Assembly: GCA_964017045.1 (NCBI GenBank)
Contig: OZ024808.1
Coordinates: 12,120,284-12,184,283 of the forward strand
Reading direction: 5' to 3'
From: Omphiscola glabra
Lineage: Eukaryota; Mollusca; Gastropoda; Lymnaeidae
DNA length: 64,000 nucleotides
The number at the start of each line of letters is the position of its first letter. Position 1 is the stretch's first letter. The position numbers and the translations under genes were made by a program. Below, piece by piece: positions 6,801-56,759 of the stretch. The notes below the pieces were generated by a model. The model was not told the origin of the DNA and made no database searches. It saw only the letters and a program-made list of their open reading frames with translations.

Positions 6801-9800
6801 ATTGCAGGGACAACACCGACGGTGTCAACTGTGAGCTGTGCAAAGATGCCTACTACAGGAAAGAGAACCAGTGCCTCAGTTGTGGCTGTCACCCAACAGG
6901 TCGGTCTCCTCATCTGTTACAGCCTGTACTCAAAGTATATGTGTTTATCATTGCATGTTTCTTGCTGCTAATCATGAATTATTTTTCATGTCCTATATAC
7001 ATTTTTTTGTTAAATATCAAAACCTATTGTTGAAAATGATTGGTGCCATAGAACAGTTTAACTGATTGTTCAAAATGATTGATACCATAGAACAATTTAA
7101 CCTATTGTTGAATATGATTGGTGCCATAGAACAGTTTAACTGATTGTTCAAAATGATTGATACCATAGAACAATTTAACCTATTCATGCAAATGATTGAT
7201 GCTTTCCTCGGTGGTCATCTCTTATCTCACCAGAGCACCATCTGACCTTACACTTTTGAACTATGCCAAACACAATATATCTTTGGAATGAAGAGTTACA
7301 GTCTGGTTTTTTTTTAAATTTGATTAGAGAAATACAACCATGTTCTTATTGTGTTCTAGAAATACCACCTTGTTCTTATTATGTTCTAGAAATACAACCT
7401 TGTTCTTATTGTGTTCTAGAAATACAACCATGTTCTTATTGTGTTCTAGAAATACCACCTTGTTCTTGTCTTATTGTGTTCTAGTTGATTGGCCTTCCGC
7501 TGTATCCCACAGGTTTATAAGTTTCACATTTACATGTTCCAGGCTCACGTCACCAGCAGTGCGACAACACTGGTCAGTGCCCTTGTAAACCAGGAGTCGG
7601 TGGAACGAGATGTGACCGCTGTCTACCCAATTATTATGACTTTGGGGAAAATGGCTGCACGTAAGTTAACGTTACATATGCAATCCCTTGAAGTGGTTGC
7701 ACAACATATGACCCTAATGATACCATATCAAGCATTTTTTATTTGTTCATTTGTGGGTCAGGATAGTGTAGACAGACAATTTTTGATCCCACATTAGATG
7801 AAGCATTTTCTTTTGTCTCTCGCCGCCCGCCCCTTCCCCACAGCTGCTCGGGCAGACCAGCCAGACCGCTCCACTATTTGCTGGGGACAATCACAGACAC
7901 ATTAGCAACTGCTATCTTTTGTTTATGAGACAAAGTCATGGGCCCACATTCATTTATATAATTCATTTTTATTTAACATGCTTTTAAATCAACATAGTAT
8001 TTTATTATATTGGTAGTCTGTTGTCCAGAGGCGTAGCTAGAATGTTTGGCGCGCGGGGACAAGATTTATTTTAAAGAGCCTCCCTTTCATTTTTCAACTT
8101 TCAAACCCATTATTTTCATCATTAAAATAATATCAAAGCACATTTTGCCGCCCCGAACTAGTCTGGCGCCAATGGATATCTGCCCACCTTAGCTGCGCCT
8201 CTGCTGTTGTCTGCCCAACTAGCTAATTATAGTAATTTATTATATTGACAGTCTGTTGCCAGCTCACTCACTAATTATAGAAATTTACTGTACTGCCCAG
8301 CTGGCTAATCACAATTCTGTTATTGATGAGTTAATTTGCCCATTGTCAGACCCTGTGCCTGTGTCCCTGCCGGGAGCTACAAGAATGAACCAAGGTGTGA
8401 CTCAAGGACTGGTCTCTGTTCCTGTAAGGAGAATGTAGATGGCAGGCGCTGTGATAAGTGAGTAACTCACTGTATGATCTACAACAATGCTTCCCAAATT
8501 TTCAAGTCTGACAGATTGGATCGGTGGACATGTTCCCACTGAACCAGAAACTGGTGTCAGATTGATTAATTATTTTCTTTTTATTAGACCTTTTCAGACC
8601 TTATGTCATAAAATATTTATTTTTTTGTATCCAGAATGGGCCTATGGGATGGGACTCTGATAACTATCACCATTTAATACTAGCAGTTATGAGCTGTTTT
8701 TTGTTGCTTGTAATGGCTGTTTAAAAATAAAAGGTGCAGATGACAGTTTTTTAAAAAATAAACATTCTTGACTCATGTGTGGACCGGTTATGTAGGGCTG
8801 GTGAAAAAGATGGAGGTCCTATGCCAAATTTGATATTAAATGAAATGCGTAAACCAGTTCCTGGATATGATAAATAATGGGCTAGTCCAATGCTCTGGCA
8901 TTAAACAGAAACTTGTCCCTCTCCCCCATAGACAGATACAAGGCCATGACAGGCAGTTCCGGCTCATACCAGCGAGAAGCCAGTATAGGAACTGCTCATT
9001 CCTACCAAAGACAATCAGGGACTGGAACAAGCTTTCAAAAGGAACAGTTGAGGCGACAACACTTGACTCATTTGCGTCTATTGCCTCAGGCCTTCCAACC
9101 CCCAGTGCATGATACCCTCACTCAGTTCCTCTTGTAACCAGTGAAATATCCTCATCAACACCAGGCACAGAGACATTGCAAATCCCATCTACATTCATGG
9201 GAGCCATAATGATCAATAAATTGATTGTGGGCCCTTAATATATAGAAGAAGAAGGTTACCAAACTGTGGAAGGAAGTTTTAAGCGCCCACACAATACAAT
9301 GTACTATAAAATATCAGCAACTCAAGCCTACTCAATTCTTTACTTTTGTAATTCAACATTGATAGCTCGTATAAAAATGTTACAAACAATCTTATCCTGT
9401 TTTTTAATGGATGCCCAAATGATTGCCTGTTTCTTAGATGTAAACCTGGATTCTTTGGCCTGAGTGAACTGGATCCATTTGGCTGCATTGCTTGTTTCTG
9501 TTATGGTCACTCATCAGAGTGTTCATCAGCTTCTGGGTTTTATGCTGACAACATCACCTCCAACTTTGAAACAGGTTGGGCATTTTTTTAACATTTATTT
9601 TTCTACTCTTGATAAGCGGTTATACAATCCCCTCCGAAAAAATGTGTGTCTTGCTTTTGAAAGATTCTTCTCTTAGTCCACAACACCTATGAAGCTCACC
9701 TTCTTTATCAGTATCTCTTTCTGGGTAGAATCAGTTGATTCCCATCCTGCTAACCAGGAATCATATTTGTTTGCAATTTTTCTAAGCCATACTGCTAAAT

Positions 9801-12800
9801 TAAGCATAAAATACATAACATCCATGCCATAGAATAATTAAAGGTGTTTGAGTCACCTCTCTACCCCAACCCTCCAAAAACCAAAACCACTTGTGATTAC
9901 ACTCTAGCTAAATAAAAATTAATGTTTAAATTATATATATATATTAATTAAAATTGGGGAGAACACATCCTCACAAAGAATTTTTGTTTTTTAACTAGTA
10001 AATGGGAATTATTATTTTTTTAAAACAGTAGGTTCATCAAAATTATGATAGTGTAAAATTGTGATAGTGTATTCAATCATATAATTAATTATATTACCAG
10101 GCAACCAGCGTTGGAAAGCTGGGACCAGGGACAACAGGGAGGCGGAGACCCAGTACAATGGTGTCCTACAGAACCTGGGAGTTTCAGCTGATGCCAATGA
10201 ATATGTTTACCTGGTGGCCCCTGGTCAGTTTTCAAAACTTAAGCACTAGACCTGAAAGCATAAACCTTTTTCTCTACAGTTTCTGAGAAACTTAATCAGA
10301 AAAATTAATTTATCGGCAAAACCATTTCTTAGCTTTTTTAAATTAGTACATTTTTTCTTGTCAGTCAATTTTAAACACAGGATACTACCCTAGGGGTCAT
10401 CTCATAGAATTATGTTTTTAGTGAATGAGTAAAGCTCTTAATAAATTAATGGGGCAAATTTTTTTTCAAGCCAAGCCTAAAATCTAGGGGCCTCCAAACA
10501 TGTGGAAGGGGAGTGTTCTGTCCTTGTTTCCACATTTGAACAGAAAATGGTGGTGGGGACAGGACCAGTGCTGATGGTAGCATTACTTTGGAATTCCCTT
10601 GATATTCTCATTTCTGCAGCTCGTTACCTTGGTGATCAGAGGTACAGCTACAACCAGTTTCTGACCTTTGACCTACGCATCGGAGAGGAGTCCCCCAAGG
10701 CCTCAACCGTCGACGTCATCTTCGAGGGATCCGGACAGTCGTTTTCCACTCACATCTATGCACAAAACAACCCGGCACCCCGTTCGTTCCTGCAGTCCTA
10801 CGCCTTCAGGATCCACGAAGACCCAGCCTACCAGTGGACACCCCGGCTCACCAGCAAGGACTACATTGCCGTGTTGGCCAATCTGACGGCCATCAAGATC
10901 AGAGCCACATACAGCAATAGAGGTAGACAACCGACACATGTTATAGAGTTATATTTCTTGTTTTCTTTTTTTGCAGTGGCGATGGAACTGGTTCCATTAA
11001 AAAAAATATATTCAAAAAAATATATAAATTATCATATTAGGATACTTTCATTTATTTGATCCCCAAAAAATTAATGAAAAGTGTAAATGATTAAATTATT
11101 TAATGAGTAAGTCATAATTTTTTAATTGTAAAGCTACACATTGTTTAGAAACAATAGTTTTTTTACTATGATCTGTTTAACAAAAATAAAATCAAGCTTC
11201 TAGGGACGCAAAAACTGCAAACCAGAAACTCTTTTCTCCAGAAGCTTTTCTTTCAATATATGATATATAAAATCATCTCAGTACTTTCATATGAGATTGT
11301 CTACTTTGATACTTTCATATAATAAAGTTTATTTTTGAAAAATCACGCTTCATCCCCAAAGGCTCGAAGCGCGTTACAAAGTCAAATCTAGGAGATTGAT
11401 TGATTGATTGGAGTACTTAGATAGTGCTCATTCCATAGCATGCTCACGGCGCTCCGCTGTTCGATGTTCGAGAGGTCTCACTGCTGCCAGTTAGGCGCAT
11501 CTGAACTCCATCTCCCCATCTCCGGGTTTGAATTCAGAGTTGCCTTCTCTTAGATGGGTTGCCGTCCAAGGTTAACGAGTCCCATCCACCCGGGGTGCTG
11601 GTGGTGTTGTTTTGCTTGACTGGGCTTTGGCGGGGATTGAACTCCTGACCATTAGCTTGAGATTTGCTCAGTTCAGACCACTCGGCCACCCGATACTTTG
11701 ATACTTTCATATGAGATTGTCTACTTTGATACTTTCATATGAGATTGTCTACTTTGATACTTTCATATGAGATTGTCTACTTTTATACTTTTATATGAGA
11801 TTGTCTACTTTGATACTTTCATATGAGATTGTCTACTTTGATACTTTTATATGAGATTGTCTACTTTGATACTTTTATATGAGATTGTCTAATTCGCTAC
11901 TTTTATATGAGATTGTCTACTTTGATACTTTTATATGAGATTGTCTACTTTGATAATGAAATGTGATTGTCTGCTTGTTCTCAAGGTGTTGGCTTCTTTG
12001 ACAACATCAAGCTTGGCACAGCCAGACAAGGCTTCCAGCTGGAAGAGGAGGCCAGCTGGGTTGAGTCCTGTACATGCCCCACTGGCTACATTGGTCAGTT
12101 TTGTGAGTCTTGTGTCCAGGGTTATAAGAGGGACCCACCCAATGGAGGACCTTTTGCCAAATGTGTACCCTGTGAGTGCAACGGTCACTCTGAAAGTTGT
12201 GATGTTAATACCGGTGAGTGTTTTTTATCCGCCTTAGAACACCAGATCCATTAGTGTCATTGGATGTTGTCATAATATTATTTCAATCCATTCATCATAA
12301 TTATTACAGCGTTCTGTACTTTTTCAAGGGCTCTAATTTTTACTCTGTCGCCTCAGGACGCTGCATCTGCCAAGACAACACAGAGGGTAACTTCTGTGAG
12401 AACTGTGCCAGGGGCTTTTACGGGGATGCCACCAAGGGAACACCTGGTGACTGCACACCATGCCCCTGCCCCAATGGTGGCCCATGCATCCAGCTGATGA
12501 ATGGAGATGTGGTGTGCACTGAATGTGAACAAGGATATGGAGGTGATATTATTATGTCATTAAATAATACTAAATTCAGGTACCAAATTTATTACCAATC
12601 ACATTTATATGAAAATAAGAATTTGAACTGACTGTTTCTTATCAAGAACACCTCTAACTGTTAGAAGATAAGATAAGATTCTTTATTGATGCAAGTAAAT
12701 GGATTTTATTTTTTTAATTACATTTGACATATTACATGTTCAGCACATGAATAAATACATATTTTAATCAAGAAAACATTTACAAGTATAACAATTTAAA

Positions 12801-15800
12801 CCCCAGATATCTAAAGTATTTCTACAGCGTAGAAATCAGCCATCAACAAACTCCTTTAATGTGGAGATTTCATGTTATACATTGCACAAACCCCTTGTTG
12901 CATTATTTCCTTAAGGATTCATTGACAACCATCTTAACTCTCTATTGGTTTTGTGATAAATTAAATGTTGTTTATTTCCTCTTTCCCCCCCCCCTCCCCC
13001 CCCCACAGGAAACCTGTGTGATGTTTGCTTGGATGGTTTCTATGGTGATCCTGTTGGATACTTCACTGGACGTCCTAGTGGATGCAGGAAGTGCACCTGT
13101 AATGGAAACATCGACCCTAATGCTGTAGGCAACTGCAACACGTAAGTGTAGATGACGAGCTTAACACTCTTTGTATATCAGGAAATCTAATTTCTTCAGT
13201 GCTATAAGGAACAAAAGCTGTTTTGTTTTGAGGTTGCTATTTGATCCAAGTATCTCTCGAAAGACATACAATTGTTTGATGAAAAAGTCAGCTTACTTTG
13301 TTATTGTAAGTGTTAAGATATTATTCTAGGAGGCAGCTGCTAGACCTTGGTATACCCTTGTGAACCTGAATGAATAGGGTATAACCTTGTGAACCTCAAT
13401 GAATAAGAATATTACTGAGGTGTTCAGATGCTGTAAACATTTGGAGCTGTCTGATTATATTGTTATTATCTGCAGGACAACAGGGGAGTGCCTCAAGTGC
13501 ATCCGTAACACCGGGGGATTCTACTGTGACCAGTGTCTGCCCAACTACTACAACAACACCAACGGCCTCTGCACGGCCTGCAACTGCTACAGCCCAGGCA
13601 CAGTCAGCCAGCCCGGGACGAGCGGCTGTGACCAGAAAACCGGACAGTGCCTGTGTCTGCCCAATGTTGTGGGCCGTCAGTGCGAGCAGTGTGAGATTGG
13701 ATACTGGAACATAGCCAGTGGTGAAGGTGGGTCATGGGTATTAAGGATTGAAGGCTTTTGGCCAGTGAACTTGTCTTTATGACCTAGGCATTTTTGTAGC
13801 GAGTGCAAACAGAAAAAGGTGTGTCTTAAAATTATGAATACAAATAATATCTTGATTGGATTTTATCAATATTTTCACCAAAGGATTCAGTGTTGGCCAT
13901 ATTGATTAATGCTGAAATTTTGTATCCATGTTCATCCATAATAAAGATTCCACAAGGAACTGTTAATTAAAAAGATTATTAAAAATCACAACATTTTGTG
14001 AACAAATGACATAAAATGTCATCATTGGTAACTTCTGATTAGGTCTGACTTCATTTAGAAAGAGGATCTTGTGTATCAACTTTGAAATCTTCATTTCAAC
14101 TTCCATCTCTGAAAACAGATATTAAATAGATTTTTAAAAAGATTTTTAAATCTTTTAAACTGTCTTTTTTTACTTTTAAGTACCACATTCTTGTGTTGAA
14201 AGGAATTTTTTTTTATGGGTGCCCAGGCGCCATGGTTTATTTTTTTGATTAGTATGTTTTGTATTTTCATGGATAAATTTCACATACAATTTACCTTCTT
14301 CTTCTTCTATATGTTGAGGGCCCATGATCAATTAACTGATCATTCTGGCTCCTATGTTTCAGAGGGGTTCGCGATGTTACTGTGCGTGGTTTTGAAGGGG
14401 ATAGTTAACTGGTTGCCAGGGTAACTCAGCAATGGTGTTATGAACTGGGGGGTTGGAAGACAGGAGGACGCAAATGTGTCAAGTGTAGTCGCCTCAACTG
14501 TTGCTTTTGGAAGCTTGTTCCAGTCCCTTATTGTCTTTGGCAGGAATGAGGAGCTCCTGTACTGAGTTCTTGTTTTTAAAAGTCGGAACTGCTTGTCGTA
14601 GGGGGGAGATGGACGAGTTTCTGTTTAATACTGGAGCAGTGGACCAGCCCATATTTTATCTGTTACAACATGGAGGGCCTAGATAGTCGTCGTTCTTCCA
14701 ACAGTGACTAGCCCAGTGTTTCCAGCATGCTGCCAACACTAGATGTGTTTCTGTAGCGGTTCATGACAAAGTGTGCTACCTTTACAAAGCAATATATAGA
14801 AGATTTCATCATTCACATTTTTAAACTGATGAACAGAGGCCCAGTTATAGAATGACTTTGTTGTTCAATAATCTATTATTTCTATACAGGTTGCTCCCCA
14901 TGCCAGTGCAGCCCAGTAGGCTCCTTGAACTACACATGTGATGAGAGCACAGGCCAGTGTCAATGCAAGCCTGGTGTCACAGGGAGGACATGTGAGACGT
15001 GTGGCAGATATTTCTACGGCTTCTCTCCTACTGGATGTTCAGGTGACATTTTTGTCTTTTTCATTATTCATACCCTACTAGAATGTCAAGTTAGTTGAAT
15101 CAAAACTTTATTTTGGTAAGTTTATTATAATCAACAAATTGTTGGTTTTCTAAGCTCATCTTTTTTGAGATGCTTTTTCTTTTCTCTTTTTTAAGAAAAT
15201 ATCCTGAGTAATAATTTGTTTTCCCCATTTCCTAGCTTGCAACTGTGACCCAGTGGGCTCCACTGACCTCCAGTGTGATGCCTATGGCTACTGCCCTTGT
15301 AAGGAGAATGTGGATGGCAGGAGATGTGACCGTTGTATGGAGAATAAGTTTGATATACGTGCCGGGTGCTTAGGTCAGTTTGGTTAGCAAGTCTAGCTCA
15401 CATGTGTTGTTTAACCATAGTGCTCTACATGTCTAGCTCACATGTGTTGTTTAACCATAGTGCTCTACATGTCTAGCTCACATGTGTTGTAAAACCATAG
15501 TGCTCTACATGTCTAGCTTACATGTGTTGTTTAACCATAGTGCTCTACATGTCTAGCTCACATGTGTTGTAAAACCATAGTGCTCTACATGTCTAGCTCA
15601 CATGTGTTGTTTAACCATAGTGCTCTACATGTCTAGCTCACATGTGTTGTTTAACCATAGTGCTCTACATGTCTAGCTCACATGTGTTGTAAAACCATAG
15701 TGCTCTACAAGTCTAGCTCACGTGTTGTTTAACCATAGTGCTCTACATGTCTAGCTCACATGTGTTGTTAAACCATAGTTCTCTACATGTCTAGCTCACA

Positions 15801-32344: not shown

Positions 32345-33970
32345 GTAAGTTTACTGTCACTGTCAACGTAGCCACTTCATTTTATTAACACAGAACTATA
32401 GCCGGAAGTCAAACAATTTTAACTTACCATTAATGCATTATAAAAAACATCTTTATTCTCTATCGCTATTTGAACCTTGATCGGTCGAACTTAAATAGTT
32501 CAAATAAAGTATCAAGTTCATAGGTCCTCCCAGTTATAACCTATGCACTTCGTTTCTAAAGTAATTATTATTACTACACTTACAGTGGTCTTATGTAGCG
32601 CAGTACCGCAGCCTAGGGCTTGGCTCACCTCGCGCGCTGTGGCTGTGGTCGTAGGCTACATCAACTACAATAACATAAAAATGAAACATTAGCTAATTAA
32701 GATAGATCGTACCTCATTTCATTAGGTTAGGTTTAGGGATATATTTAGAGTTCAGGTTAGGTTTAGGGATAGATTTAGGTGCAGGTTAGGTTTAGGAATA
32801 CATTTAGGAAATTGTTTCATTATATTTTAACGTTTTATTCTTAATTTTATAAGTCACAGCAATCAAGTTGGCGGCCATGGTAAAAAAACGCGGTACGATC
32901 TATTCAAATTTACCAAAACATTATATTAGAATACGCAACCATGACATTAAAAAATAACATACATTTATTTAATTAAAAAACACCCGTATAAATAAAAACA
33001 AATGTATATAATATAGGCCTACACCCCACGGCTACGCACCTCAGAATGTCAAGCCATGTCCAGCAGCAACCTTTTTATCGGTCAAAGGGGACAGGGGATA
33101 ATCAGCATTCAGTTGGGATAGTAGAGTTTAAAGTAGGGTTACCAGACGTCTGTATTTAGTACGGACAGTTTGTATTTTTGAACCCCTTGTCCGTACTAAT
33201 AATTGCGTCCTTATTTGTCCGTACTTTCCTCTCGTCATCATACTTGTCTGTACTTGAGGCAACGAGGACATACTTGTCTTATTTCCATTTGTCTTACTAA
33301 ACTTCTTCTCTTAAAATAGTTATGTACCCTGATTCTGATAATGGAGCAACACCGTAATAATAAATGTTAATTATACCTATGTTATGTTTTTCCTAATATC
33401 TAAAACACCATTAACTTAACCGATAGCCTATATCCATTCACACTGTACTATTTGGAACTTTAATTTAACTGCTTACAATTTTTATACATAGCCTAAATAC
33501 ATATTAGTATAGCTCATATTATCATAGTAAAGTAACCATGAAGGATAAACCATTGTTGATATTATAATTTTAACCATATTCATAATTCAGAGAATGTGAG
33601 TTGTCAAGTGAATAACTTTAATTGCACTTAATTTTTTTTTTAAAAGCCATTTCTTTTGTATTTCAGATAAATATTTGGAGGATAAAGAGTAGATATTTTA
33701 TTATATTTCACTCCATTTTATTAAAAGAAAAGAATTGCACAAGACAAATTAACTTCATGCACAGAAGTGTTGTCTGGTTTAAGGTGAAGACAAAATTAAA
33801 AATTTTAATGAATTTATATTTGAGCTAAGCTTATTTCAAAATCCTCTAAATGTCATTCAAAAGATAAAAATAGATACAGACTGTCCTAAAATATTAAATG
33901 AAGAATTAGATCACAATATTATTACAAAAACACGTTCAAGCCTCAGAAATACAGCCCGACTTTCATAAAA
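32345..33970. other. Intergenic region upstream of the zinc-finger gene
   Basis: No coding feature. Contains a 38-bp block shared with 45752-45794, telomere-like repeats (32718-32812) and a degenerate repeat rich in tgtccgtact around 33140-33260. AT-rich near the zinc-finger start. Confidence 0.5.
32718..32812. repeat. Telomere-like ggttaggtttaggg repeats
   Basis: Three roughly 31-bp units, each containing ggttaggttta and most continuing ggga, related to TTAGGG. Confidence 0.7.
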
Positions 33971-33973
33971 AAA

Positions 33974-35620
33974 ATGAAGAAGGAAGATGGCGATGATGTT
34001 AACCAAACGGGAGCTATAGTTTTTAACTGTTTTTTCAGTTCTATAGTCCAACATGGGACAGGACTCAACACAAATTATGAGTTGGAAACAAGTTTAAATC
34101 CACCATTGCATACTGAATATGTTCCCAATAAAATCTATGAGAAAATTTCTAACTACGAATCAGATTTAGAAAAACCTGGACAATCACATGTAGCTGTATC
34201 TAAAGGACTGGAAGCTGTAAAAGAGACACAAATACGTGACTCAGTGTTACACATAAGACAACATGCAGGAGAGAAGCCTCACAAATGTGACATTTGCTCT
34301 GAAGCATTTTCTAAAAATTCCCATCTTATTGCACACAAAAGAAAACATACAGGAGAGAAACCATTCATATGTGAAATTTGTTCAGCTGCATTTGTCCAAA
34401 ATTCAAGCTTAACTTCACACAAAAGAAAACATACAGGAGAAAAACCCTACAAATGTGATATTTGTCAGGCTGCATATGCTATAAAATCATATTTAAATGA
34501 ACACAAAAGAAGACATACAGGAGAGAAACCCCACCAGTGTAATGTCTGCCCTGCTGCGTTTGTTCAAGCTTCACAATTAAATAAACACAAAAGAATACAC
34601 ACTGGAGAGAAACCCTACAAATGTGACATTTGTCCTGCTGCGTTTTCTATAGGCTCAACACTAGTTGTTCACAAAAGAAAGCATACGGGAGAGAAACCAA
34701 GCAAATGTGATATCTGTAGTGCTACGTTTTCTTCAAGTTCGGGGTTATCTTCACATAAAAGGAAACATACTGGAGAGAAGCCCTACAAATGTGACATTTG
34801 TTCTGCCACATTTTCTACTAGTTCAGGCTTATCTACACACAGAATAACTCATACTGGAGAGAAACGCTACAGTTGTGACATTTGCTCTGCTAGGTTTGCC
34901 CAAAGCTCAACTTTATCTTCACACAAAAGAACACATGCAGGAGTGAAACCTTACAATTGTGACATTTGTCAATCTGCATTTGCCAGAAAATCAACTTTAT
35001 CTTCACACAAAAGAATACACACAGGAGAGAAACCTTACAAATGTGACATTTGTTCTTCTGCCTTTGTTCAAAGTTCAGCATTAGCTTTACATATTAGAAG
35101 ACGGCACACAGGAGAGAAACCCTACACATGTGACATTTGTGCTGCTGCTTTTGCGCAAAGTTCACAATTAATTATTCACAAAAGAAAACATACAGGAGAG
35201 AAACCCTACAAATGTGAAATTTGTCAGTCTACCTTTGCTGAGAAAAGCCTTTTAACCATACACAAAAGAAGGCACACAGGAGAGAAACCCTACAAATGTG
35301 ACATTTGTTCCGCTGCTTTTGTACATAGCTCACAATTTGTTGTTCACAAAAGAAAACATACTGGAGAGAAACCCTACAAATGTGAAATTTGTCAGCATGC
35401 ATTTGCTAGAAAAGGTTTTTTAATTGAGCACAAAAGGACACATACAGGAGAGAAACCATACAAATGTGACATTTGTCCTGCTTCATTTTCTAGAGGCTCA
35501 CACTTAGTTGACCACAAAAGGAAACATACAGGAGAGACACCATATAAATGTGACATTTGTAATGCAAAATTTTCTGCAAGCTCTATCTTGAAAAGACACA
35601 AAAGAACACATAAAACATAA
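33974..35620 (+). CDS. C2H2 zinc-finger protein, 16 fingers
   Basis: Single-exon 548-residue protein, probably a nuclear sequence-specific DNA-binding factor. About 95 residues of non-finger N-terminus precede 16 C2H2 fingers joined by TGEKP-type linkers. A further half-finger (H-I-R-Q-H-A-G-E-K-P, without its cysteines) precedes finger 1. Helix residues at -1, 2, 3 and 6 vary along the array: KSHA, QSSS, ISYE, QSQK, ISTV, SSGS, TSGT, QSTS, RSTS, QSAL, QSQI, ESLI, HSQV, RGFE, RSHD, ASIR. Finger 10 has H-x4-H (H-I-R-R-R-H) where the rest have H-x3-H. No KRAB, SCAN, BTB or ZAD domain seen. The first ATG follows an A-run; upstream the frame stays open only to a TGA near 33899. Orthology not assignable; such arrays expand lineage by lineage. 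Confidence 0.9.
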   Translation: MKKEDGDDVNQTGAIVFNCFFSSIVQHGTGLNTNYELETSLNPPLHTEYVPNKIYEKISNYESDLEKPGQSHVAVSKGLEAVKETQIRDSVLHIRQHAGEKPHKCDICSEAFSKNSHLIAHKRKHTGEKPFICEICSAAFVQNSSLTSHKRKHTGEKPYKCDICQAAYAIKSYLNEHKRRHTGEKPHQCNVCPAAFVQASQLNKHKRIHTGEKPYKCDICPAAFSIGSTLVVHKRKHTGEKPSKCDICSATFSSSSGLSSHKRKHTGEKPYKCDICSATFSTSSGLSTHRITHTGEKRYSCDICSARFAQSSTLSSHKRTHAGVKPYNCDICQSAFARKSTLSSHKRIHTGEKPYKCDICSSAFVQSSALALHIRRRHTGEKPYTCDICAAAFAQSSQLIIHKRKHTGEKPYKCEICQSTFAEKSLLTIHKRRHTGEKPYKCDICSAAFVHSSQFVVHKRKHTGEKPYKCEICQHAFARKGFLIEHKRTHTGEKPYKCDICPASFSRGSHLVDHKRKHTGETPYKCDICNAKFSASSILKRHKRTHKT

Positions 35621-37699: not shown

Positions 37700-40600
37700 T
37701 TTAATATCATTCAAAAAACTATTTTTTCTACTCATAAAAACACATAGCATAATATAAACTATTTTTTACTCTTAAAAACACATAGCATAAAATAAACAAT
37801 TTTTTCTACTCATAAAAACACATAGCATAATATAAAAACATTTTCTTCTCATAAAAACACATAGCATGATATAAACTCTTTTTTCTACTTATAAAAATAC
37901 ATAGCATAATATAAACTATTTTGTACTCATAAAAACACATAGCATTATATAAACTATTTTGTACTCATAAAATCACATAGCATTATATAAACTATTTTTA
38001 AAATTATAAAAACACATAGCATAATATAAACTATTTTCTACTCATAAAAACACATAGCATAATATAAACTATTTTCTACTCATAAAAACACATAGCATAA
38101 GATAAACTATTTTTTCTACTCATAAAAACACATAGCATAATATAAACTATTTTCTACTCATAAAAACACATAGCATAATATAAACTATTTTCTACTCATA
38201 AAAACACATAGCATAAGATAAACTATTTCTTCTACTCATAAAAACACATAGCATAATAATAACTATTTTTCTACTCATAAAAACACATAGCATAATAATA
38301 ACTATTTTTTTACTCATAAAAATGCACAGCACAAAAATTATATTTTTTTATTTCATAAAAACACATAGCTTAATATAAACTATTTTTCTACTCATAAAAA
38401 CACTTAGCATAATATAAACTAATTCTTCAACTCATAAAAACACATAATATAATATAAAATATATTTTCTACTCTTAAAAACACAAAGCATAATATAAACT
38501 ATTTTTTCTACTCATAAAAACACTTAGCATAATATAAAATAATTCTTCAACTCATAAAAACACATATCATAATATAAAATATCTTTTCTACTCATAAGAA
38601 CACATAGTTTAATATAAACTATTTTTACTACTCATAAAAACACATAGCATTATATAAACTATTTTAACTCATAAAAACACATAGCATAATATAAACTATT
38701 TTTTCTACTCATAAAAACACATAGCATTATATAAACTATTTTTTACTCTTAAAAACACAAAGCATAAAATAAAATATTTTTAACTCATAAAAACACATAG
38801 CATAATATAAATTATTTTTTCTACTCATAAAAACACATAGCATAATATAAACTATTTTTTCTACTCATAAAAACACATATCATGGTATAAACTATTTTTT
38901 CTACTCATAAAAACACAGCATAATATTAACTATTTTACTCTTAAAGACACATAGCATAAAATAAACTATTTTTTCTACTCATAAAAACACATATCATAAT
39001 ATAAAATATCTTTTCTACTCATAAAAACGCATAGCACAAATTTATTTTTTTATTTTATACAAACATATAGCTTAATATAAACTATTTTTTCTACTCATAA
39101 AAACACAGCATAATATTAACTATTTTACTCTTAAAGACACATAGCATAAAATAAACTATTTTTTCTACTCATAAAAACATATCATAATATAAAATATCTT
39201 TTCTACTCATAAAAACGCATAACTTAATATAAACTATTTCTTCTACTCTTAAAAACATATAGCATAATATAAACTATTTTTTCTACTCATAAAAACACAT
39301 AGCATAATATAAAAACATTTTCTTCTCATAAAAACACATATAAACTCTTTTTTCTACTTATAAAAATACATAGCATAATATAAACTATTTTGTACTCATA
39401 AAAACACATAGCATTATATAAACTATTTTGTACTCATAAAATCACATAGCATTATATAAACTATTTTTAAAATTATAAAAACAAATATCATAATATAAAC
39501 TATTTTTTCTACTCATAAAAACATATAGCATAATATAAACTATTTTCTACTCATAAAAACACATAGCATAATATAAACTATTTTCTACTCATAAAAACAC
39601 ATAGCATAAGATAAACTATTTTTTCTACTCATAAAAACACATAGCATAATATAAACTATTTTTTACTCATAAAAACACATAGCATAATATAAACTATTTT
39701 CTACTCATAAAAACACATAGCATAAGATAAACTATTTCTTCTACTCATAAAAACACATAGCATAATAATAACTATTTTTCTACTCATAAAAACACATAGC
39801 ATAATAATAACTATTTTTTTACTCATAAAAATGCACAGCACAAAAATTATATATTTTTATTTCATAAAAACACATAGCTTAATATAAACTATTTTTCTAC
39901 TCATAAAAACACTTAGCATAATATAAACTAATTCTTCAACTCATAAAAACACATAATATAATATAAAATATATTTTCTACTCTTAAAAACACAAAGCATA
40001 ATATAAACTATTTTTTCTACTCATAAAAACACTTAGCATAATATAAAATAATTCTTCAACTCATAAAGACACATATCATAATATAAAATATCTTTTCTAC
40101 TCATAAGAACACATAGCTTAATATAAACTATTTTTACTACTCATAAAAACACATAGCATTATATAAACTATTTTTTACTCTTAAAAACACAAAGCATAAA
40201 ATAAAATATTTTTAACTCATAAAAACACATAGCATAATATAAATTATTTTTTCTACTCATAAAAACACATATCATGGTATAAACTATTTTTTCTACTCAT
40301 AAAAACACAGCATAATATTAACTATTTTACTCTTAAAGACACATAGCATAAAATAAACTATTTTTTCTACTCATAAAAACACATATCATAATATAAAATA
40401 TCTTTTCTACTCATAAAAATGCATAGCTTAATATAAACTATTTCTTCTACTCTTAAAAACATATAGCATAATATAAACTATTTTTTCTACTCATAAAAAC
40501 ACATCTCATGGTATAGACTATTTTTTCTACTCATAAAAACACATAGCATAATATAAACTATTTTTCTACTCATAAAAACACATAGCATAATATAAAATAT

Positions 40601-41500
40601 TTTTTACTAATAAAAATGCATAGCACAAATTTATTTTTTTATTTTATACAAACATATAGCTTAATATAAACTATTTTTTCTACTCATAAAAACACATATC
40701 ATAATATAAAGTATCTTTTCTACTCATAAGAACACATAGTTTAATATAAACTATTTTTACCCATAAAAACATATAGCATAAAAGAAAATATTTTAACTCA
40801 TAAAAACACATAGCATAATATAAACTATTTTTTTCTACTCATAAAAACACATAGCATTATATAAACTATTTTTTACTCTTAAAAACACAAAGCATAAAAT
40901 AAAATATTTTTAACTCATAAAAACACATAGCATAATATAAACTATTTCTTCTACTCATTAAAACACATAGCATAATATAAACTATTTCTTCTACTCATTA
41001 AAACCAATAGCATAATATAAACTATTTCTTCTACTCATAAAAACACATATCATGGTATAAACTATTTTTTCTACTCATAAAAACACATAGCATAATATTA
41101 ACTATTTTTACTATTAAAGACACATAGCATAAAATAAACTATTTTTTCTACTCATAAAAACACATATCATAATATAAAATATCTTTTCTACTCATAAAAA
41201 CGCATAGCTTAATATAAACTATTTTTACTCATAAAACACAGAGCATAATATAAACTATTTTTTATACTCATAAAAACACATAGCATAATATAAACTATCT
41301 TTTCTACTCATAAAAACACATAGCTTAATATAAACTATTTTTACTCATAAAAACACATAGCCTTAAAGAAAATATTTTAACTCATAAAAACACATAGCAT
41401 AATACAAACTATTTTTACTCATAAAAACGCATAGCATAAAATAAACTATTTTTTCTACTCATAAAAACTCATAGCATAATATAAACTATTTTTTCTGCAC
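37700..41500. repeat. 3.8-kb AT-rich satellite-like array, unit about 38-40 bp
   Basis: Roughly 95-100 copies of a unit containing actcataaaaacacatagca and taatataaactatttttt. Markers such as the aatgcacagc variant (38321 and 39830) and the aatcacatag variant (37971 and 39440) recur about 1.5 kb apart, showing a higher-order duplication. No coding content. Confidence 0.95.
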
Positions 41501-41759
41501 ATATAATATGAAAATAATTTTTTTCGACACATTTAACATATAACATCATATAACGAGAGGTAGGCCCCTACTCAGTGTTACAAAAATTATATAGACAGAG
41601 GTACACAGATGTCAAAAGTTTGAGAAACACTGCTTTAGGATTTTCCGACCCACATGTTGAGAGCCATTGAATTGGTTAAATATTCATATTTAAATATAAA
41701 TATTACTGTCAAGTGTAATGAATGCTAGTAAATGGTTTAAATGAGCTCCTAATCTTGAC

Positions 41760-42037
41760 TCCAAGATGTACTCAGTCCCTCAGGATCCAGTGAGCCCCTC
41801 CAGTGATCATGTACTTAGGCCATCAGAATCCAATGAGTAGCCTACCTCCAGTGATCATGTACATAGTCCCTCAGAATCCAATGAGTCTTCCAATGATCAT
41901 GTACTTAGTCCCTCAGAATCCAATGAGTCCCTCCAATGATCCTGTACTTTGCCCCTCAGATTCCAATGAGTCCCTCCAATGATCATGTACTTAGTCCCTC
42001 AGAATCCAATGAGTCCCTCCAGTGATCATGTACTTAG
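41760..42037. repeat. About 45-bp tandem repeat, 6 copies
   Basis: Units contain gatcatgtacttagtccctc and agaatccaatgagt. Immediately follows the satellite-like array. Confidence 0.9.
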
Positions 42038-47372: not shown

Positions 47373-47378
47373 TTTATT
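47373..47378 (-). terminator. Candidate poly(A) signal of the nuclear receptor gene
   Basis: AATAAA on the minus strand about 150 nt past the stop codon. Confidence 0.45.
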
Positions 47379-47528: not shown

Positions 47529-49504
47529 TCATGTGCTGTCTGCTGTCTTGTCTTGACAGACACAAGCGCAGGTGCATTTTCTTTTGTTGACCTTCAACCC
47601 CAAAGCCGTTTTGGTGACTGGTGTGCTCGTATATCCGGGTCCGCGTCTCTGGCGTAGCGGCCATCTTTTGTATCTCAGACGCTTGGCCGGCTGGGGTCTG
47701 GAATCGCAAGAGTTGTCCCGCTTTCTTTTCCGTTCGAACGACGCGTTCTCCTTGTTTTCTGGAAGTGTGGACAAGTCTGTTGCCGTAGAAGATGCCCCAC
47801 TGATGCCCAAGCCACTGTCAACAACAGCTTCTCCAGGGGTGGATAACTCGCAAGCTGACGTGACAGACGGATATTCTTTCACCCTTTCCTCATTGCCCCC
47901 CTTCAGATTGTCAGTGTCTACATTCTCCTGTTTGTTATCATTGTCAACAGTTTCACAATCAATAAAGATATCCTGAGACTCTTCATCGGAAGCTAGAATC
48001 TCAGACCTAATTTTGGCCACAAATGGACTGATCCCATTCAACTCAGCTTCACTCGGAAAGAACCCATTTCCACTTTCCGGGGAAGAAGGATACGAATCTC
48101 CACTACAAACACTTTGGGTATTTCGACTAGTCGATTGGGTGGAAAGATCTTCAATAACAGAATGCATCATCTCATCCACTCTAGGCTTTTCAGACCTGTC
48201 ACTCAATGGCTCTAGCGAGCGTGACCTCTGGTCCGCCGCGTTAGCTAAGGCACTGACATTGTAACTGAAAGAACTTGGTGGGTAGACAGATATAGGCCGC
48301 CACTGGACTGGGGCAGAGTTAAGGTTTTCATCAGAATAATGGAAAAATGAGGCGAACCCTGGGGCAATGGAAGCCGGGCTTCGTGTTGGTACAAAGGAGT
48401 TGTAGGGACAGAACTCCTGGAACGTGCTTCCACTCCGCCTAGGTTCCTCTTTCAGTAGATCGTCAATCATGAAAGCTCTCGATTTTTTAGGCTTCTCTGC
48501 TCCTGGTTTATCGGAATCCCGACCCTCGAGAGTACGAGGTTCTCCGTCAACAAGGATCTTGCGATAACACTTCCGGTTTTTGTTGTCCGCCACAAGGGGG
48601 TGGGACGTAACAGAATTCCCGTTGGAGTCCTGAAAGCCCGAGGAAGACGTAGCACTACCTGCACGGATTATCGGTGTGCTCGGCTTGATCACGGAAAACT
48701 CTGCGTCGACGACCCGTTCAGCTGAATGTGCCTGACCTTGACATTCAACGTCTTGGGTATCCACGATCTCTTTTTTAATATTTGTCATTTTGACGTCAGG
48801 GGTCACCTGAGATGGACTCTGCAATACGTCACATCTCGTAGGAGATGTTAGTTGTTGTGCTGACATGGGGACATTGCCGTTGTTGGAGCAGCCAGGCAGC
48901 TGATGCTGCAAATACTGGAGATACTGACCAGCGGTCAGTCCAAGCGACTCCTGAGAATACGATCTCATCGGATCATAAGAACTTGTGATTGGGAAACCGC
49001 TGGCTACTGTTAAGAAATCATTTTTGATTAAAGTGTTGTTGCAATGATTTGCAGAACCTTGGTCACCGGCGTGCGAGGGAAGACCTTTGTTCCATGACCT
49101 CCATTGAGAGAAAGCCGTGTCCGTCATATCCGGTGTGTACCGAAGACCGCCGTAGGCTGAGCTCAGCCCGCCGTCGAAGTACGGAGCGGCGCCGGGGTAG
49201 CTGCCGGAAGGATAGGTCGGGTATGGATTCTGGTTGAACACCCCGATCCCAATAGAAGGTACTTGCAGGTTTATTACAGGTGGTATATGGTAGATTCCAC
49301 TCTGAGGGGCTGAAGTTGTAGCCTGTGGCGCTTGTAAGTAGTGGGGCGGCGGGATGTAAGGCTGCTGGGGGCTGGGTAAATGCGTTGACCAATTTAATGA
49401 CGCCAGGTCCGGTCGTCCCTCTTGCAGCATCTTCTGTTGCTGGATGTACAACTGGGTTTCATCCAGGCTGGTGTCATGGCTGCCCTCCCTTGGTTGTTGG
49501 ACTT
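47529..49504 (-). CDS. Nuclear receptor exon 4 (long C-terminal tail)
   Basis: Acceptor ...ttatctgcag; one 1,976-nt exon encoding residues 81-738 and the stop. Starts V-Q-Q-P-R-E-G-S-H-D-T-S-L-D. GC content is clearly higher than in the neighbouring DNA and there are no internal stops, supporting genuine coding sequence. Low-complexity, Ser/Pro/Asn-rich, with acidic patches and two basic clusters near the end. Confidence 0.92.
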
Positions 49505-52329
49505 CTGCAGATAAAAATGATTTTGAAATGAGAAAAGATGGGCATGCAATCCCGACCTAAATATCATAATGATGGTTTTCTTTTTGTGTGTGTGTTTTTT
49601 AGTGAATAATAAGCCGACATAAATTAAAAACTTGGTAAACGTCACAAAGAAACAAATCGATTTATAAAAATAAATTTTTAAACAAGAAACGCTAAAGTTC
49701 TAGAGAAAATAATATTTAAGTTGCAAGAATCCCTAGGACAGATGTACTTACTGGAACTGTCCACTCCTGCACGCATGCACGCGTCATATCTACACGCCTT
49801 GCACGCCTTTCTCGAGCTGTGGTTGACAATGCACTGGCCGTCCGATTTGCATTCTGGGATTTTTACTTTACCCTGAAGCAGACGATAATAATTTTTAGAT
49901 TTAGAGACGGGTGTTATTGATACAGTCTGGACGACAACCATGGTACAATCCTGGTAGAATACAACAATTTGAAAAACCCTGTTAGAATTTAACAACCCAG
50001 TTAGAATTGAACCATTTGAGAACCTTGTTAGAATGCAATCATTTAACACTCCTGTGGCATACAATCATTTGAAAACCCTGTGTGGCATACAATCATTTGA
50101 AAACCCTGTGTGGCATACAATCATTTAAAAACCCTGTGTGGCATACAATCATTTGAAAACCACTATTAGAATACACAACCATTTGACAACCACTATTAGA
50201 ATACAACCATTTAACAACCCTGTTAGAATACAATCCTAGGCCAACCGATCAAAAGTCTATCTCATCAACAAAAAAACAAGAAGACCCCCAAAAAGCTCCA
50301 AACAGAAGGAGACCAAGAGAGCCAAGAGAGTCAAGAGAGTCAAGAGTGCCAAGAGAGCCAAGAGTGTCAAGAGTGCGAAGAGTGCGAAGAGTGCCAAGAG
50401 AGCCAAGAGTGCCAAGAGAGCCAAGAGTGCCAAGAGTGCCAAGAGTGCTTAAGAGTGCCAAGAGAGCCAAGAGAGCCAAGAGTGCCAAGAGTGCCAAGAG
50501 AGCCAAGAGAGCCAAGAGAGACCAAGAGAGCCAAGGGTGCCAAGAGCCAAGACTCACCTGAACTGTCCGCTTGAAGAAAGCCCGGCATCCGTTGCACAGA
50601 AGTCGTGTGTAGTGTAGAGCCACTTGGTCTGATGTCTCACCACACACAACACACACATGGTGAACTGTGGGGGAGATAGCGGTAACATAGTCAATATTGG
50701 TGGATTACATGTGGATGGATGACGAGTAACGGGGTATAGATGTGGATGAATGGGGTGTAAAATGTAAATGTCGGTTGTTGGGGTTTAGATTTGGGGACGG
50801 GTGGGGCTTACATGGGATTGGATGGGCTTTCATGGGGATGGATGGGCTTTCATGGGAATGGATGGGCTTTCATGGGGATGGATGGGCTTTCATGGGGATG
50901 GATGGGCTTTCATGGGGATGGATGGGCTTTCATGGGAATGGATGGGCTTTCATGGGGATGGATGGGCTTTCATGGGGATGGATGGGCTTTCATGGGAATG
51001 GATGGGCTTTCATGGGGATGGATGGGCTTTCATGGGGATGGATGGGCTTTCATGGGAATGGATGGGCTTTCATGGGGATGGATGGGCTTTCATGGGGATG
51101 GATGGGCTTTCATGGGAATGGATGGGCTTTCATGGGAATGGATGGGCTTTCATGGGGATGGATGGGCTTTCATGGGAATGGATGGGCTTTCATGGGAATG
51201 GATGGGCTTTCATGGGGATGGATGGGCTTTCATGGGGATGGATGGGCTTTCATGGGAATGGATGGGCTTTCATGGGGATGGATGGGCTTTCATGGGAATG
51301 GATGGGCTTTCATGGGAATGGATGGGCTTTCATGGGAATGGATGGGCTTTCATGGGGATGGATGGGCTTTCATGGGGATGGATGGGCTTTCATGGGAATG
51401 GATGGGCTTTCATGGGAATGGATGGGCTTTCATGGGAATGGATGGGCTTTCATGGGGATGGATGGGCTTTCATGGGAATGGATGGGCTTTCATGGGAATG
51501 GATGGGCTTTCATGGGAATGGATGGGCTTTCATGGGGATGGATGGGCTTTCATGGGGATATTGAAACCTGACATCCTTATTAAATGATAGATGAATCTAT
51601 AATTTATTCCATCACGCATAAATTAGGTATGTGTGTGGGGGGGGGGGGGGAATGCTGTCCATAAATCAGACATCTCCTACATTGATTTACAAACACCGTG
51701 TCATCGAGAGAAAAATGAACATTTTTCAAACAAAATTTACTAGTTTGAACATTTCATCTAGAGAACGAAAATACCCACCCATGAACATACTCCAGAGTCT
51801 TTCATGAAAGTTGGGAATAAGACACACAGACACAGGAGACGTTACTCCAGTAATACCTTACTTGAGCTATTTACTTCTATTAATTATGACGTTTTTGTAT
51901 TCTGCTTTGCTTTAAAACATCTCTTACGTCCCATGAATTTTTGTGTTGTGTCCGATTATTGAATAATTTAATAACAAGATGAACAAGATGTAGTAATGAG
52001 ATGAATAAGGTATACTAATAAGATGAACGAGATATAGTTATAAGATGAACAAGAAGTAGTAATGAGATGAACAAGATGTAGTAATAAGATGAACAAGATG
52101 TAGTAATAAGATGAACAAGATGTAGTAATGAGATGAATAAGGTATACTAATAAGATGAACGAGATATAGTTATAAGATGAACAAGAAGTAGTAATGAGAT
52201 GAACAAGATGTAGTAATAAGATGAACATGATGTAGTAATAAGATGAACAAGATGTAGTAATAAGATGAAAAAGATATAATAATAAGATGAACAAGACATA
52301 ATAAATGTGAACTCACCCTTAACATCCAT
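47529..52329 (-). CDS. DBD-only nuclear receptor, 4 coding exons
   Basis: Putative nuclear zinc-finger transcription factor of the nuclear-receptor superfamily. Exons 52329-52317, 50664-50558, 49872-49752 and 49504-47529 join in phase (2,217 nt, 738 residues). DBD is at residues 9-77: Cys 9, 12, 28, 31 form zinc module 1 and Cys 48, 54, 64, 67, 72 supply module 2. The P-box is C-N-G-C-R-A-F-F (usual C-E-G-C-K-G-F-F) and the D-box loop K-S-D-G-Q has the normal five residues. The remaining 660 residues are Pro/Ser/Gln/Asn-rich with no visible ligand-binding-domain helices. They hold a SUMO site I-K-K-E (323-326), an eh1-like F-M-I-D-D-L-L (425-431), basic clusters (672-676 and 688-694) and a C-terminal C-T-C-A-C-V-C. 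The architecture recalls the arthropod Knirps group (NR0A) but the P-box does not. Subfamily unknown. Confidence 0.88.
48453..48473 (-). other. eh1-like Groucho-binding motif FMIDDLL
   Basis: Encodes F-M-I-D-D-L-L, preceded by K-K-S-R-A and followed by K-E-E. It fits the F-x-I-x-x-(I/L)-L engrailed-homology-1 consensus that recruits Groucho/TLE co-repressors. Confidence 0.6.
48768..48779 (-). other. Candidate SUMO-acceptor site IKKE
   Basis: I-K-K-E within D-V-K-M-T-N-I-K-K-E-I-V; fits hydrophobic-Lys-x-Glu. Common in repressive nuclear receptors. Confidence 0.45.
49752..49872 (-). CDS. Nuclear receptor exon 3 (second zinc module)
   Basis: Acceptor ...ctgcttcag, donor gtaagt, 121 nt. Encodes P-E-C-K-S-D-G-Q-C-I-V-N, then C-K-A-C-R-Y-D-A-C-M-R-A-G-V, with the C-x5-C-x9-C-x2-C-x4-C spacing of nuclear-receptor module 2. 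Confidence 0.93.
49960..50225. repeat. About 29-bp tandem repeat in receptor intron 2-3
   Basis: Units combine tacaatcatttgaaaaccct with gtgtggca or gttagaa. Confidence 0.85.
50303..50552. repeat. 9-bp repeat array next to receptor exon 2 donor
   Basis: About 27 copies of gccaagag(t/a), ending within 10 bp of the exon 2/intron boundary at 50558. The period of 9 gives long open frames (Leu/Ala-rich on minus, Arg/Lys-rich on plus) that are not genes. Confidence 0.93.
50558..50664 (-). CDS. Nuclear receptor exon 2 (first zinc module)
   Basis: Acceptor ...cccccacag, donor gtgagt, 107 nt. Encodes H-H-V-C-V-V-C-G-E-T-S-D-Q, then C-N-G-C-R-A-F-F-K-R-T-V-Q. Splitting the DBD between the two modules is a common nuclear-receptor exon boundary. 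Confidence 0.92.
50805..51560. repeat. 20-bp minisatellite, 37 copies, in receptor intron 1
   Basis: Unit gatgggctttcatggg(g/a)atg with only one variable base. The 20-bp period times three (60 bp) keeps all three plus frames open (256-281 codons), a periodicity artefact. Confidence 0.97.
51966..52300. repeat. 22-bp minisatellite in receptor intron 1
   Basis: Unit agatgaacaagatgtagtaa plus ta, with variants. A six-unit (132-bp) block is repeated: the atgaataagg variant is at 52001 and 52133. Ends about 15 bp from the exon 1 donor. Confidence 0.92.
52317..52329 (-). CDS. Nuclear receptor coding exon 1
   Basis: Thirteen coding nucleotides, ATG GAT GTT AAG G, then donor gtgagt. Chosen because it supplies the single base needed to complete the codon at 50664 and gives M-D-V-K-V-H-H-V-C. 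The 5' UTR continues upstream toward the promoter near 52.6 kb. Confidence 0.78.
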
Positions 52330-52629
52330 GGTCGTCTTCTTGACAAATCGGTCCGGTGAATGGGAAGCGAAATAATAAAGTTATTAACACGGTTTTTAGT
52401 TCTGTGCTACACACCATAACACAACACACACTAATTTCTAGACACCGCAGCAGATGAGCCAACGTTAAAATTCCTTGGTGCTCTAGAGAAACTAGACTAC
52501 GGATTATCCAATGTCACAATGGTTGAAATAGTCCATGTGAATTTTGATCTGCTAAAAGTTACCTCCAATTACAATTTTGGGTCTGCGGTGAACTCTTCTC
52601 GGATAGATTGCTGCTATATTTGACCACTC

Positions 52630-52637
52630 TTTATATA
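52630..52637 (-). promoter_or_regulatory. TATA box of the nuclear receptor gene
   Basis: TATATAAA on the minus strand, about 300 nt upstream of the ATG. Transcription start predicted near 52600. Confidence 0.65.
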
Positions 52638-52655
52638 CACGTTCGCTGGACATCC

Positions 52656-52663
52656 TGACGTCA
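52656..52663 (-). promoter_or_regulatory. CRE (TGACGTCA)
   Basis: Perfect palindromic cAMP-response element about 20 bp upstream of the TATA box, a position typical of functional CREB/ATF sites. A nuclear-receptor half-site AGGTCA (plus strand) lies at 52671-52676. Confidence 0.65.
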
Positions 52664-52740
52664 CGGCTATAGGTCATTTCAAGTGCCAAACAAAATCAAC
52701 TTTATTTTTGGTGAAATACAGACTTCCCGTCACGTCCTGC

Positions 52741-52783
52741 ATTGGCCAGAGCGGCTACGGCGCGTGCCACAAGCCCCGCCCCC
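52741..52783 (-). promoter_or_regulatory. CCAAT box and GC box
   Basis: CCAAT on minus at 52741-52745 and a GGGGGCGGGG-type Sp1 box at 52774-52783, about 105-150 bp upstream of the TATA box. Confidence 0.5.
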
Positions 52784-52789
52784 AAACGG

Positions 52790-54300: not shown

Positions 54301-54306
54301 TATGCT

Positions 54307-55095
54307 GTAGCTTCCAAAGGGTGATGATGTAACCGAGTGATAGCTATAATAGCTCTGTTGTAGCTTCCAAAGGGTGATGATGTAACCGGGTGATAGCTAA
54401 TAATAGCTCTGTTGTAGCTTCCAAATGGTGACGATGTAACCGGGTGATAGCTATAATAGCTCTGTCGTAGCTTCCAAAGGGTGACGATGTAACCGGGTGA
54501 TAGCTATAATAGCTCTGTTGTAGCTTCCAAAGGGTGATGATGTAACCGGGTGATAGCTATAATAGCTCTGTTGTAGCTTCCAAATGGTGACGATGTAACC
54601 GGGTGATAGCTATAATAGCTCTGTTGTAGCTTCCAAAGGGTGATGATGTAACCGGGTGATAGCTAATAATAGCTCTGTTGTAGCTTCCAAAGGGTGATGA
54701 TGTAACCGGGTGATAGCTAATAATAGCTCTGTCGTAGCTTCCAAAGGGTGACGATGTAACCGGGTGATAGCTATAATAGCTCTGTTGTAGCTTCCAAATG
54801 GTGACGATGTAACCGGGTGATAGCTATAATAGCTCTGTTGTAGCTTCCAAAGGGTGATGATGTAACCGGGTGATAGCTAATAATAGCTCTGTTGTAGCTT
54901 CCAAAGGGTGATGATGTAACCGGGTGATAGCTAATAATAGCTCTGTTGTAGCTTCCAAATGGTGACGATGTAACCGGGTGATAGCTATAATAGCTCTGTT
55001 GTAGCTTCCAAAGGGTGATGATGTAACCGGGTGATAGCTATAGCTCTGTTGTAGCTTCCAAAGGGTGATTATGTAACCGGGTGATAGCTATAACA
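54307..55095. repeat. 53/54-bp minisatellite, about 15 copies
   Basis: Unit contains tgtagcttccaaagggtgat and gatgtaaccgggtgatagct. Units alternate between agctataat and agctaataat variants. Confidence 0.95.
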
Positions 55096-55132
55096 TTAAT
55101 ATATACGCATAAAAAATTATTACAATTTAGAG

Positions 55133-55320
55133 CAGTGGTTCTCAACCTTCCTAACGCCGCGACCTTTTAAAGCAGTTCCTCATGTTATGGTGACCCCAAA
55201 CGATACAATGATTTCCATTGCTACTTCATAAATATATGTTTTCCGATCGCCTGAGGTGACCCCTGTGTAAGGGTCAAACAACCCCCAAAGGGGTCGCGGC
55301 CTACAGGTTGAGAACCACTG
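55133..55320. mobile_element. SPIN-like hAT element (non-autonomous)
   Basis: Perfect 16-bp terminal inverted repeats cagtggttctcaacct. Flanked by atttagag (55125-55132) and attcagag (55321-55328), an 8-bp duplication with one mismatch. The interior (gccgcgacc, gcagttcctcatgtta, ggtgacccc, ttgctacttcataa, ccccaaaggggtcgcg) matches, from memory, the non-autonomous SPIN family of hAT transposons. Non-coding, 188 bp. Confidence 0.85.
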
Positions 55321-56655: not shown

Positions 56656-56692
56656 ATTTTAATTTCTTAAACCATCAGTGATACATTCACAT

Positions 56693-56752: not shown

Positions 56753-56759
56753 TTCGCCA

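Follow-up and report, generated by a model that had tools for sequence, protein, structure and literature searches.

Gene content of the window

The window, i.e., the whole stretch of 64,000 nucleotides of Omphiscola glabra DNA analyzed here, carries on its minus strand a gene of the nuclear receptor superfamily (Table 1). According to the reading-frame and exon map of the window, four coding exons located between 52329 and 47529 encode 738 residues followed by a stop codon, and all three introns of this gene start with GT and end with AG. Since a TATA motif precedes the first coding exon and a polyadenylation-type signal follows the stop codon, the gene model looks complete. Both zinc-finger patterns match this gene alone, and no second DNA-binding domain (DBD) was found in the 64-kb window. 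The two first introns contain tandem arrays, and the window also carries a laminin-type gene, a set of C2H2 zinc fingers and a region of strongly biased composition.

Table 1. Features of the receptor gene and of its surroundings, ordered by position in the window
Feature	Position	Strand	Description
Laminin-type gene	6671..13779	+	EGF_laminin at 6671-7030 and 13393-13779, Laminin_B at 10481-11056
Tandem C2H2 zinc fingers	33902..35617	+	Single 572-residue open frame with 16 matched zf-C2H2 stretches
AT-rich region	38001..42000		Very AT-rich and G-poor; 2-kb halves with GC 0.195 and 0.246 and GC skew -0.70 and -0.47; perhaps a long strand-biased repeat
AATAAA, polyadenylation-type signal	47373..47378	-	About 150 bases 3′ of the stop codon; pattern scan
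Exon 4	47529..49504	-	657-residue tail, coordinates including the stop codon; open frame, free of Pfam families at E up to 10
PGYTSTP	47619..47639	-	Residues 703-709; conserved block preceded by a basic stretch resembling an NLS; YTSTP at 47633, reading down
eh1-like motif FMIDDLL	48453..48473	-	Residues 425-431; predicted Groucho/TLE-binding site; coordinates from the exon map, in agreement with the tblastn row 48521-48444
IKKE	48768..48779	-	Residues 323-326; psi-K-x-E sumoylation-type motif; coordinates from the exon map
Exon 3	49752..49872	-	Zinc finger 2; runs from residue 41 through residue 80 to the first base of codon 81; zf-C4 match
Intron 2 array	49987..50235		28-base unit
Intron 2 array	50309..50546		9-base unit
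Exon 2	50558..50664	-	Zinc finger 1 with P-box CNGCRA, up to residue 40; zf-C4 match
Intron 1 minisatellite	50804..51556		20-base unit, about 37.7 copies, 96% matches
Intron 1 array	51972..52296		22-base unit
Coding exon 1	52317..52329	-	ATG; four codons (residues 1-4) plus the first base of codon 5, 13 bases in all; GT donor next
TATA motif TATATAA	52631..52637	-	5′ of exon 1; pattern scan

Relatives of the window protein and splice junctions

A search of about 5.8 billion proteins, in which 6699 candidates were scored after a strict word filter, identified four relatives of the window protein, all from heterobranch gastropods: Plakobranchus ocellatus (P0001), Bradybaena similaris (P0002), Elysia chlorotica (P0003) and Elysia marginata (P0004). 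The closest matches of the window protein are molluscan, and the fifth match is an ERR from a mite (P0005). A repeat search of 7992 word-sharing candidates retrieved the same four relatives and the mite ERR, and another one, with 5 candidates, retrieved three of the four, P0004 being missed. The DBD of the window protein is 72-79% identical to those of its relatives (71-92% for all pairs of the five proteins), and between the family and 25 reference DBDs (24 hand-entered sequences and that of the mite ERR, which comes from the protein search) identity does not exceed 45%, the top pair being Bradybaena and NR2E3. In a maximum-likelihood tree of DBDs (30 rows, 24 of which are hand-entered sequences; 69 usable columns; bootstrap not settled), the family forms a single clade with a support of 100/100 and a stem of 4.3 changes per column. 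Since three of the four relatives come from sacoglossans, the number of independent lineages among the five proteins is about three. At the level of the sequences compared, they are a coherent subfamily, found here in heterobranch gastropods among word-filtered candidates.

The relatives also bear on the gene model. In tblastn comparisons, the four of them are 80-88% identical to exon 2 and 56-67% identical to the exon 3 stretch. The 13-base exon 1 fits the alignment, in which the window protein shows MDVKVHHVCVVC and the Bradybaena protein begins with METKVHNTCVVC, the two N-termini agreeing in length and in K-V-H. The junction between the two fingers (VQ/GKV, the slash marking the junction) is found in the alignment of all four relatives, and the third one (VDSS/KVQ) is likewise backed by the alignment. 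In the sacoglossan models (P0001, P0003 and P0004), the N-terminus is longer by 20-25 residues, which contain RKWFVPPQ, DKWLLALQ or DRWLLALQ; these residues are missing from the window and Bradybaena proteins and suggest an alternative first exon. One pattern for such an upstream exon had no match over positions 50700-64000 of the minus strand. The E. chlorotica model extends further, as far as a Med22 match of 41 bits at residues 1122-1172, with no LBD match in between. This end is probably a fusion with a neighbouring gene, and its Med22 part has no tblastn match in the window.

A DBD without a detected ligand-binding domain

Residues 8-77 of the window protein match Pfam zf-C4 (63.6 bits, E 2.4e-17, cut-off 21.1), and the eight zinc cysteines that characterize DBDs of the superfamily (C9, C12, C28, C31, C48, C54, C64 and C67) are invariant in the five proteins. 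The zinc-finger DBD that the sequence-only reading had recognized in the four-exon product is thus borne out by the domain match, the GT-AG introns and the junctions that fit the relatives. By contrast with this DBD, the ligand-binding domain (LBD) of canonical members was found neither in the whole 738-residue protein nor in the four relatives, all of which are DBD-only in a Pfam search for Hormone_recep at E up to 10, the filters of which discard most matches above about E 0.1. The same search, used as a positive control on the mite ERR, detected Hormone_recep with 57 bits. The tail encoded by exon 4, searched alone, gave no match to any Pfam family (E up to 10). The absence of an LBD had been claimed beforehand, with a Hormone_recep match in residues 81-738 named as the result that would speak against it; such a match was looked for and none appeared at E up to 10. 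Lacking one of the two domains, the window protein has the architecture of NR0, a category defined by architecture that gathers receptors devoid of DBD or of LBD (PMC4070562).

This picture could also come from a receptor that is truncated or decaying, or from an incomplete model of a gene with an LBD isoform: the gene model was obtained from the DNA alone and, with 738 residues, the window protein falls short of its relatives (927 to 1183). However, the last exon is open over 657 residues, the splice sites are intact, TATA and polyadenylation-type signals are present, and the LBD is also missing in the models of four other species. Furthermore, ten other minus-strand frames of at least 75 residues between 35.67 and 47.82 kb contain no LBD, a size limit that shorter exons would escape. 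Such a truncation or incomplete model is therefore very improbable, and a pseudogene was rejected on account of the long open last exon, the intact splice sites, the TATA and AATAAA motifs and the four DBD-only relatives.

Signature of the DBD and predicted DNA target

The P-box is CNGCRA in all five proteins. Their finger-1 loop has 15 residues (5/5), compared to 13 in 25/25 reference DBDs, and these two extra residues were absent from the sequence-only reading. The stretch between the fingers has 16 residues in the five proteins; in the reference set, it has 15 residues in 19 of 25 DBDs, 16 in PPARG, REV-ERB, Knirps, Knrl and Eagle, and 17 in THRB. The P-box of the mite ERR is CEACKA, and that of the oestrogen receptor ESR1 (hand-entered sequence) is CEGCKA, two substitutions (E to N, K to R) away from CNGCRA. 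Among solved structures, ERR ranks with the best matches, and the family shares with ERR/ER (NR3) the stretch [KR]AFFKR[TSA][IV]QG that follows the P-box. However, NR3 receptors have Glu at P-box position 1, an LBD and no longer finger-1 loop, and their DBDs are at most 43% identical to those of the family.

The PNR DBD (hand-entered sequence) is 41-45% identical to the five family DBDs, and in the human NR2E3 P-box a Cys precedes Asn65. The Asn-Gly-Cys core of the P-box is common to the family and to NR2E3/PNR/FAX-1 (PMC2225407, PMC2773741): Asn65-Gly66-Cys67 belong to the P-box of human NR2E3 and are lost in a deletion mutant (PMC2773741), and Asn-19 is present throughout NR2E3 members (PMC2225407). 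However, NR2E receptors, including NR2E3/PNR/FAX-1, have Ser or Ala at DBD position 22 (PMC2225407), and the latter also possess an LBD, whereas position 22 of the window DBD is Arg. The window protein therefore shows the Asn of the NR2E3 rule at P-box position 1 but not its Ser/Ala at position 22.

The Asn that the family shares with NR2E3 at P-box position 1 and the basic residue kept at box position 5 hint, by analogy, at an AGGTCA-related hexamer as target of this DBD, the second base being perhaps relaxed. FAX-1, which has Asn-19, binds ANGTCA half-sites with a relaxed second base, and the change of Asp-19 to Asn in NHR-67 moved the preference at the second base from A to G (PMC2225407). 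The prediction is nevertheless weak, since high-affinity binding of AGGNCA by human TR-beta was reported to need Glu at P-box position 1 (PMC3908500) and the Asn-to-Asp change in FAX-1 does not abolish binding to AGGTCA (PMC2225407).

Placement in the superfamily

The phylogeny of DBDs that had been called for recovers the family but does not place it. Grouping the family as one clade with Knirps (p-AU 0.556), NR3 (0.295), NR2E (0.368), PNR (0.365), THRB (0.428) or human HNF4A (0.342) is rejected in none of these six cases over the 69 columns. HNF4A belongs to NR2A, the ancestral group of the nematode supplementary receptors, of which the tree itself includes no member.

The sequence-only reading had connected C-N-G-C with the nematode supplementary receptors, which would imply a copy convergent with, or horizontally related to, these receptors. 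The motif is indeed common to both. However, C-N-G-C is no nematode signature, since Asn-Gly-Cys is also found in human NR2E3 and Asn in all NR2E3 members (PMC2773741, PMC2225407), and the P-boxes confined to Caenorhabditis are CRACAA/CKACAA (PMC3908500), not CNGCRA. As the window protein moreover has no detected LBD and the four other family members found are all from gastropods, the nematode affinity was rejected, and convergence with or horizontal relationship to these receptors is extremely improbable.

The family could also be a molluscan branch of NR0A (Knirps/Eagle), i.e., DBD-only repressors inherited from an early ancestor, with a P-box altered in molluscs. Knirps, Knirps-like and Eagle of Drosophila likewise have a DBD, no LBD and a repressor design (PMC3388334), and NR0A genes were lost early within chordates (PMC7827873), a loss implying that NR0A predates the arthropods and is wider in distribution. 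The 16-residue spacing between the fingers and the CKxxGxC...CKACR second finger are common to the family and Knirps (hand-entered sequences for the Knirps group), and grouping the two costs 0.02 log-likelihood units, the least of the six groupings tried. However, none of the five other groupings is rejected, the 16-residue spacing is also found in PPARG and REV-ERB, and the branches of the family (4.3 changes per column) and of the Knirps group (2.8) are both very long, so that attraction is likely. Furthermore, as had been anticipated for NR0A, the P-box differs: that of the Knirps group, CEGCKS, comes with a finger-1 loop of 13 residues, versus CNGCRA and 15 residues in 5/5 family proteins. 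Finally, Knirps recruits CtBP through PMDLS (PMC9890238), whereas a PxDLS motif is found in none of the five proteins (0/5), which carry an eh1-like motif. Overall, membership in NR0A is unlikely.

An eh1-like motif in a disorder-prone tail

The tail is disorder-prone and is not a simple repeat. Ser and Pro account for 12.8% and 8.5% of its residues, and its 25-residue blocks have entropies of 2.87-3.86 bits. On the TOP-IDP scale it averages 0.162, above the DBD (0.099) and a stretch of 60 residues from the mite ERR LBD (-0.018). It had been described beforehand as low-complexity, but its complexity is just mildly low and two conserved blocks lie within it, so a plain low-complexity tail was rejected.

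The first block was found with an eh1 sequence pattern. In each of the five proteins, this pattern has a single match, of the form FMIDx[IL]L (FMIDDLL, FMIDSIL, FMIDTLL, FMIDAIL and FMIDDIL), and is thus conserved among all relatives. By chance, 6-11% of shuffled tails contain the loose pattern and 0.7-2.1% the strict pattern; for FMIDx[IL]L, which was picked after being seen, the count is 0/5000 shuffles in each of the five tails. The second block, P-x-[YF]-TSTP, is also present in 5/5 proteins. The tail alignment has 417 gap-free columns, 16 of which are invariant; five invariant positions within seven columns occur only at FMIDDLL and PGYTSTP, a density reached by 5/20000 column shuffles in a sample where three of the four relatives are sacoglossans. 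A short psi-K-x-E pattern, a putative sumoylation site, precedes the eh1-like motif by 80-124 residues in each of the five proteins (raw count). Among the five proteins, L-x-x-L-L is found in P0004 only.

From the start of YTSTP, 34 residues remain to the end of the window protein, whereas P0001, P0002 and P0004 continue for 186, 128 and 204 residues; because of this shorter stretch, a further family block is missing in the window protein. A profile of the C-termini of the relatives gave nothing below E 0.97 against the stop-to-stop frames of at least 12 residues on both strands of the window, where the ICGExFQ block of sacoglossans and the TYTM-type block near the end of the relatives were not found. 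On the minus strand below 50.7 kb, a motif scan yielded the known YTSTP and two loose ICxxF-type matches (36273 and 49649), taken as chance.

Discussion

This work revealed five heterobranch proteins that all combine an intact two-finger DBD, an undetected LBD, the same P-box, an eh1-like motif and, upstream of it, a psi-K-x-E pattern. Our preferred reading, which we hold to be probable, is that the window gene encodes a functional, ligand-independent repressor of the nuclear receptor superfamily and belongs to a subfamily present in heterobranch gastropods. The two fingers would bind DNA at an AGGTCA-related hexamer, the tail would recruit Groucho/TLE through FMIDx[I/L]L, target genes would be silenced without hormone input and sumoylation may tune this repression. 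The recruitment of Groucho/TLE, the repression and the half-site are drawn by analogy: Engrailed, whose LAFSISNILSD aligns with the family motif, binds and recruits Groucho through it, and Knirps recruits CtBP (PMC9890238). As in the family, the eh1 repressors of the Engrailed, T-box and Fox types carry F-x-I-x-x-[IL]-L outside their DNA-binding domain. The partners given in the available part of a survey of eh1 motifs are homeobox, Fox, T-box, C2H2, Doublesex and ETS domains, with no nuclear receptor among them (PMC1310626), and the absence of a known precedent for such a combination speaks against the preferred reading.

It counts against a repressor that eh1 is a short motif that may occur by chance. 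The protein could instead be a passive competitor on the response elements of other receptors, with a tail devoid of co-repressor role and an eh1-like motif that is coincidental or serves another contact, and it does contain neither an LBD nor any other known domain besides its fingers. However, the otherwise poorly conserved tail has just two conservation peaks, one of which is FMIDx[I/L]L, and this across about three independent lineages. Passive competition is accordingly a minority option in our view, with a standing close to that of NR0A membership.

Under the preferred reading of an active repressor, the family resembles Knirps in its design but would, by analogy, use another co-repressor motif. 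It is tempting to go further and to see in it a lophotrochozoan counterpart of Knirps, a hormone-free repressor in which the LBD has been replaced by an eh1 tail recruiting Groucho and in which the P-box is of the Asn type. It would then be the first nuclear receptor subfamily with eh1 instead of an LBD within the literature searched, which was non-exhaustive. This proposal has slightly less than an even chance of being right. No report of eh1 in nuclear receptors was found in this same literature.

DBD-only receptors have been attributed to arthropods and nematodes (PMC8363021). In molluscs, a survey of the oyster listed two DBD-only sequences, CgNHR40, thought to be incomplete, and CgNHR41 (PMC4070562). 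The unclassified receptors BgNRU1-3 of Biomphalaria have both domains, BgNRU4 was incomplete, and the LBD of the Lottia LgTR was missing (PMC4388693). The mining of the Lottia and Capitella genomes left out LBD-less receptors (PMC2950128), and therefore such genes may have been missed by design. CgNHR41, which has a DBD without identified LBD and falls outside the NR4 group, although its authors consider it a possible NR4 homologue (PMC4070562), may belong to the family described here. Full novelty is thus tempered by the wider range implied for NR0A (PMC7827873) and by the oyster DBD-only sequences already listed (PMC4070562). For the five proteins with their identical P-box, no description as a subfamily was found in the literature searched; this is in keeping with the undescribed lophotrochozoan subfamily that the sequence-only reading had put forward as one of two options, here with heterobranch members. 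If true, a conserved molluscan subfamily would mean that the loss of the LBD and a dedicated repressor role, whether they arose there or persisted, are also found beyond Ecdysozoa and involve another co-repressor motif.

It should also be emphasized that, in public records, P0001 and P0004 bear the names ‘estrogen receptor beta’ and ‘thyroid hormone receptor beta’, which are unsupported given that no LBD was detected. Such hormone-receptor names, carried by two of the four relatives, could misdirect work on molluscan endocrinology.
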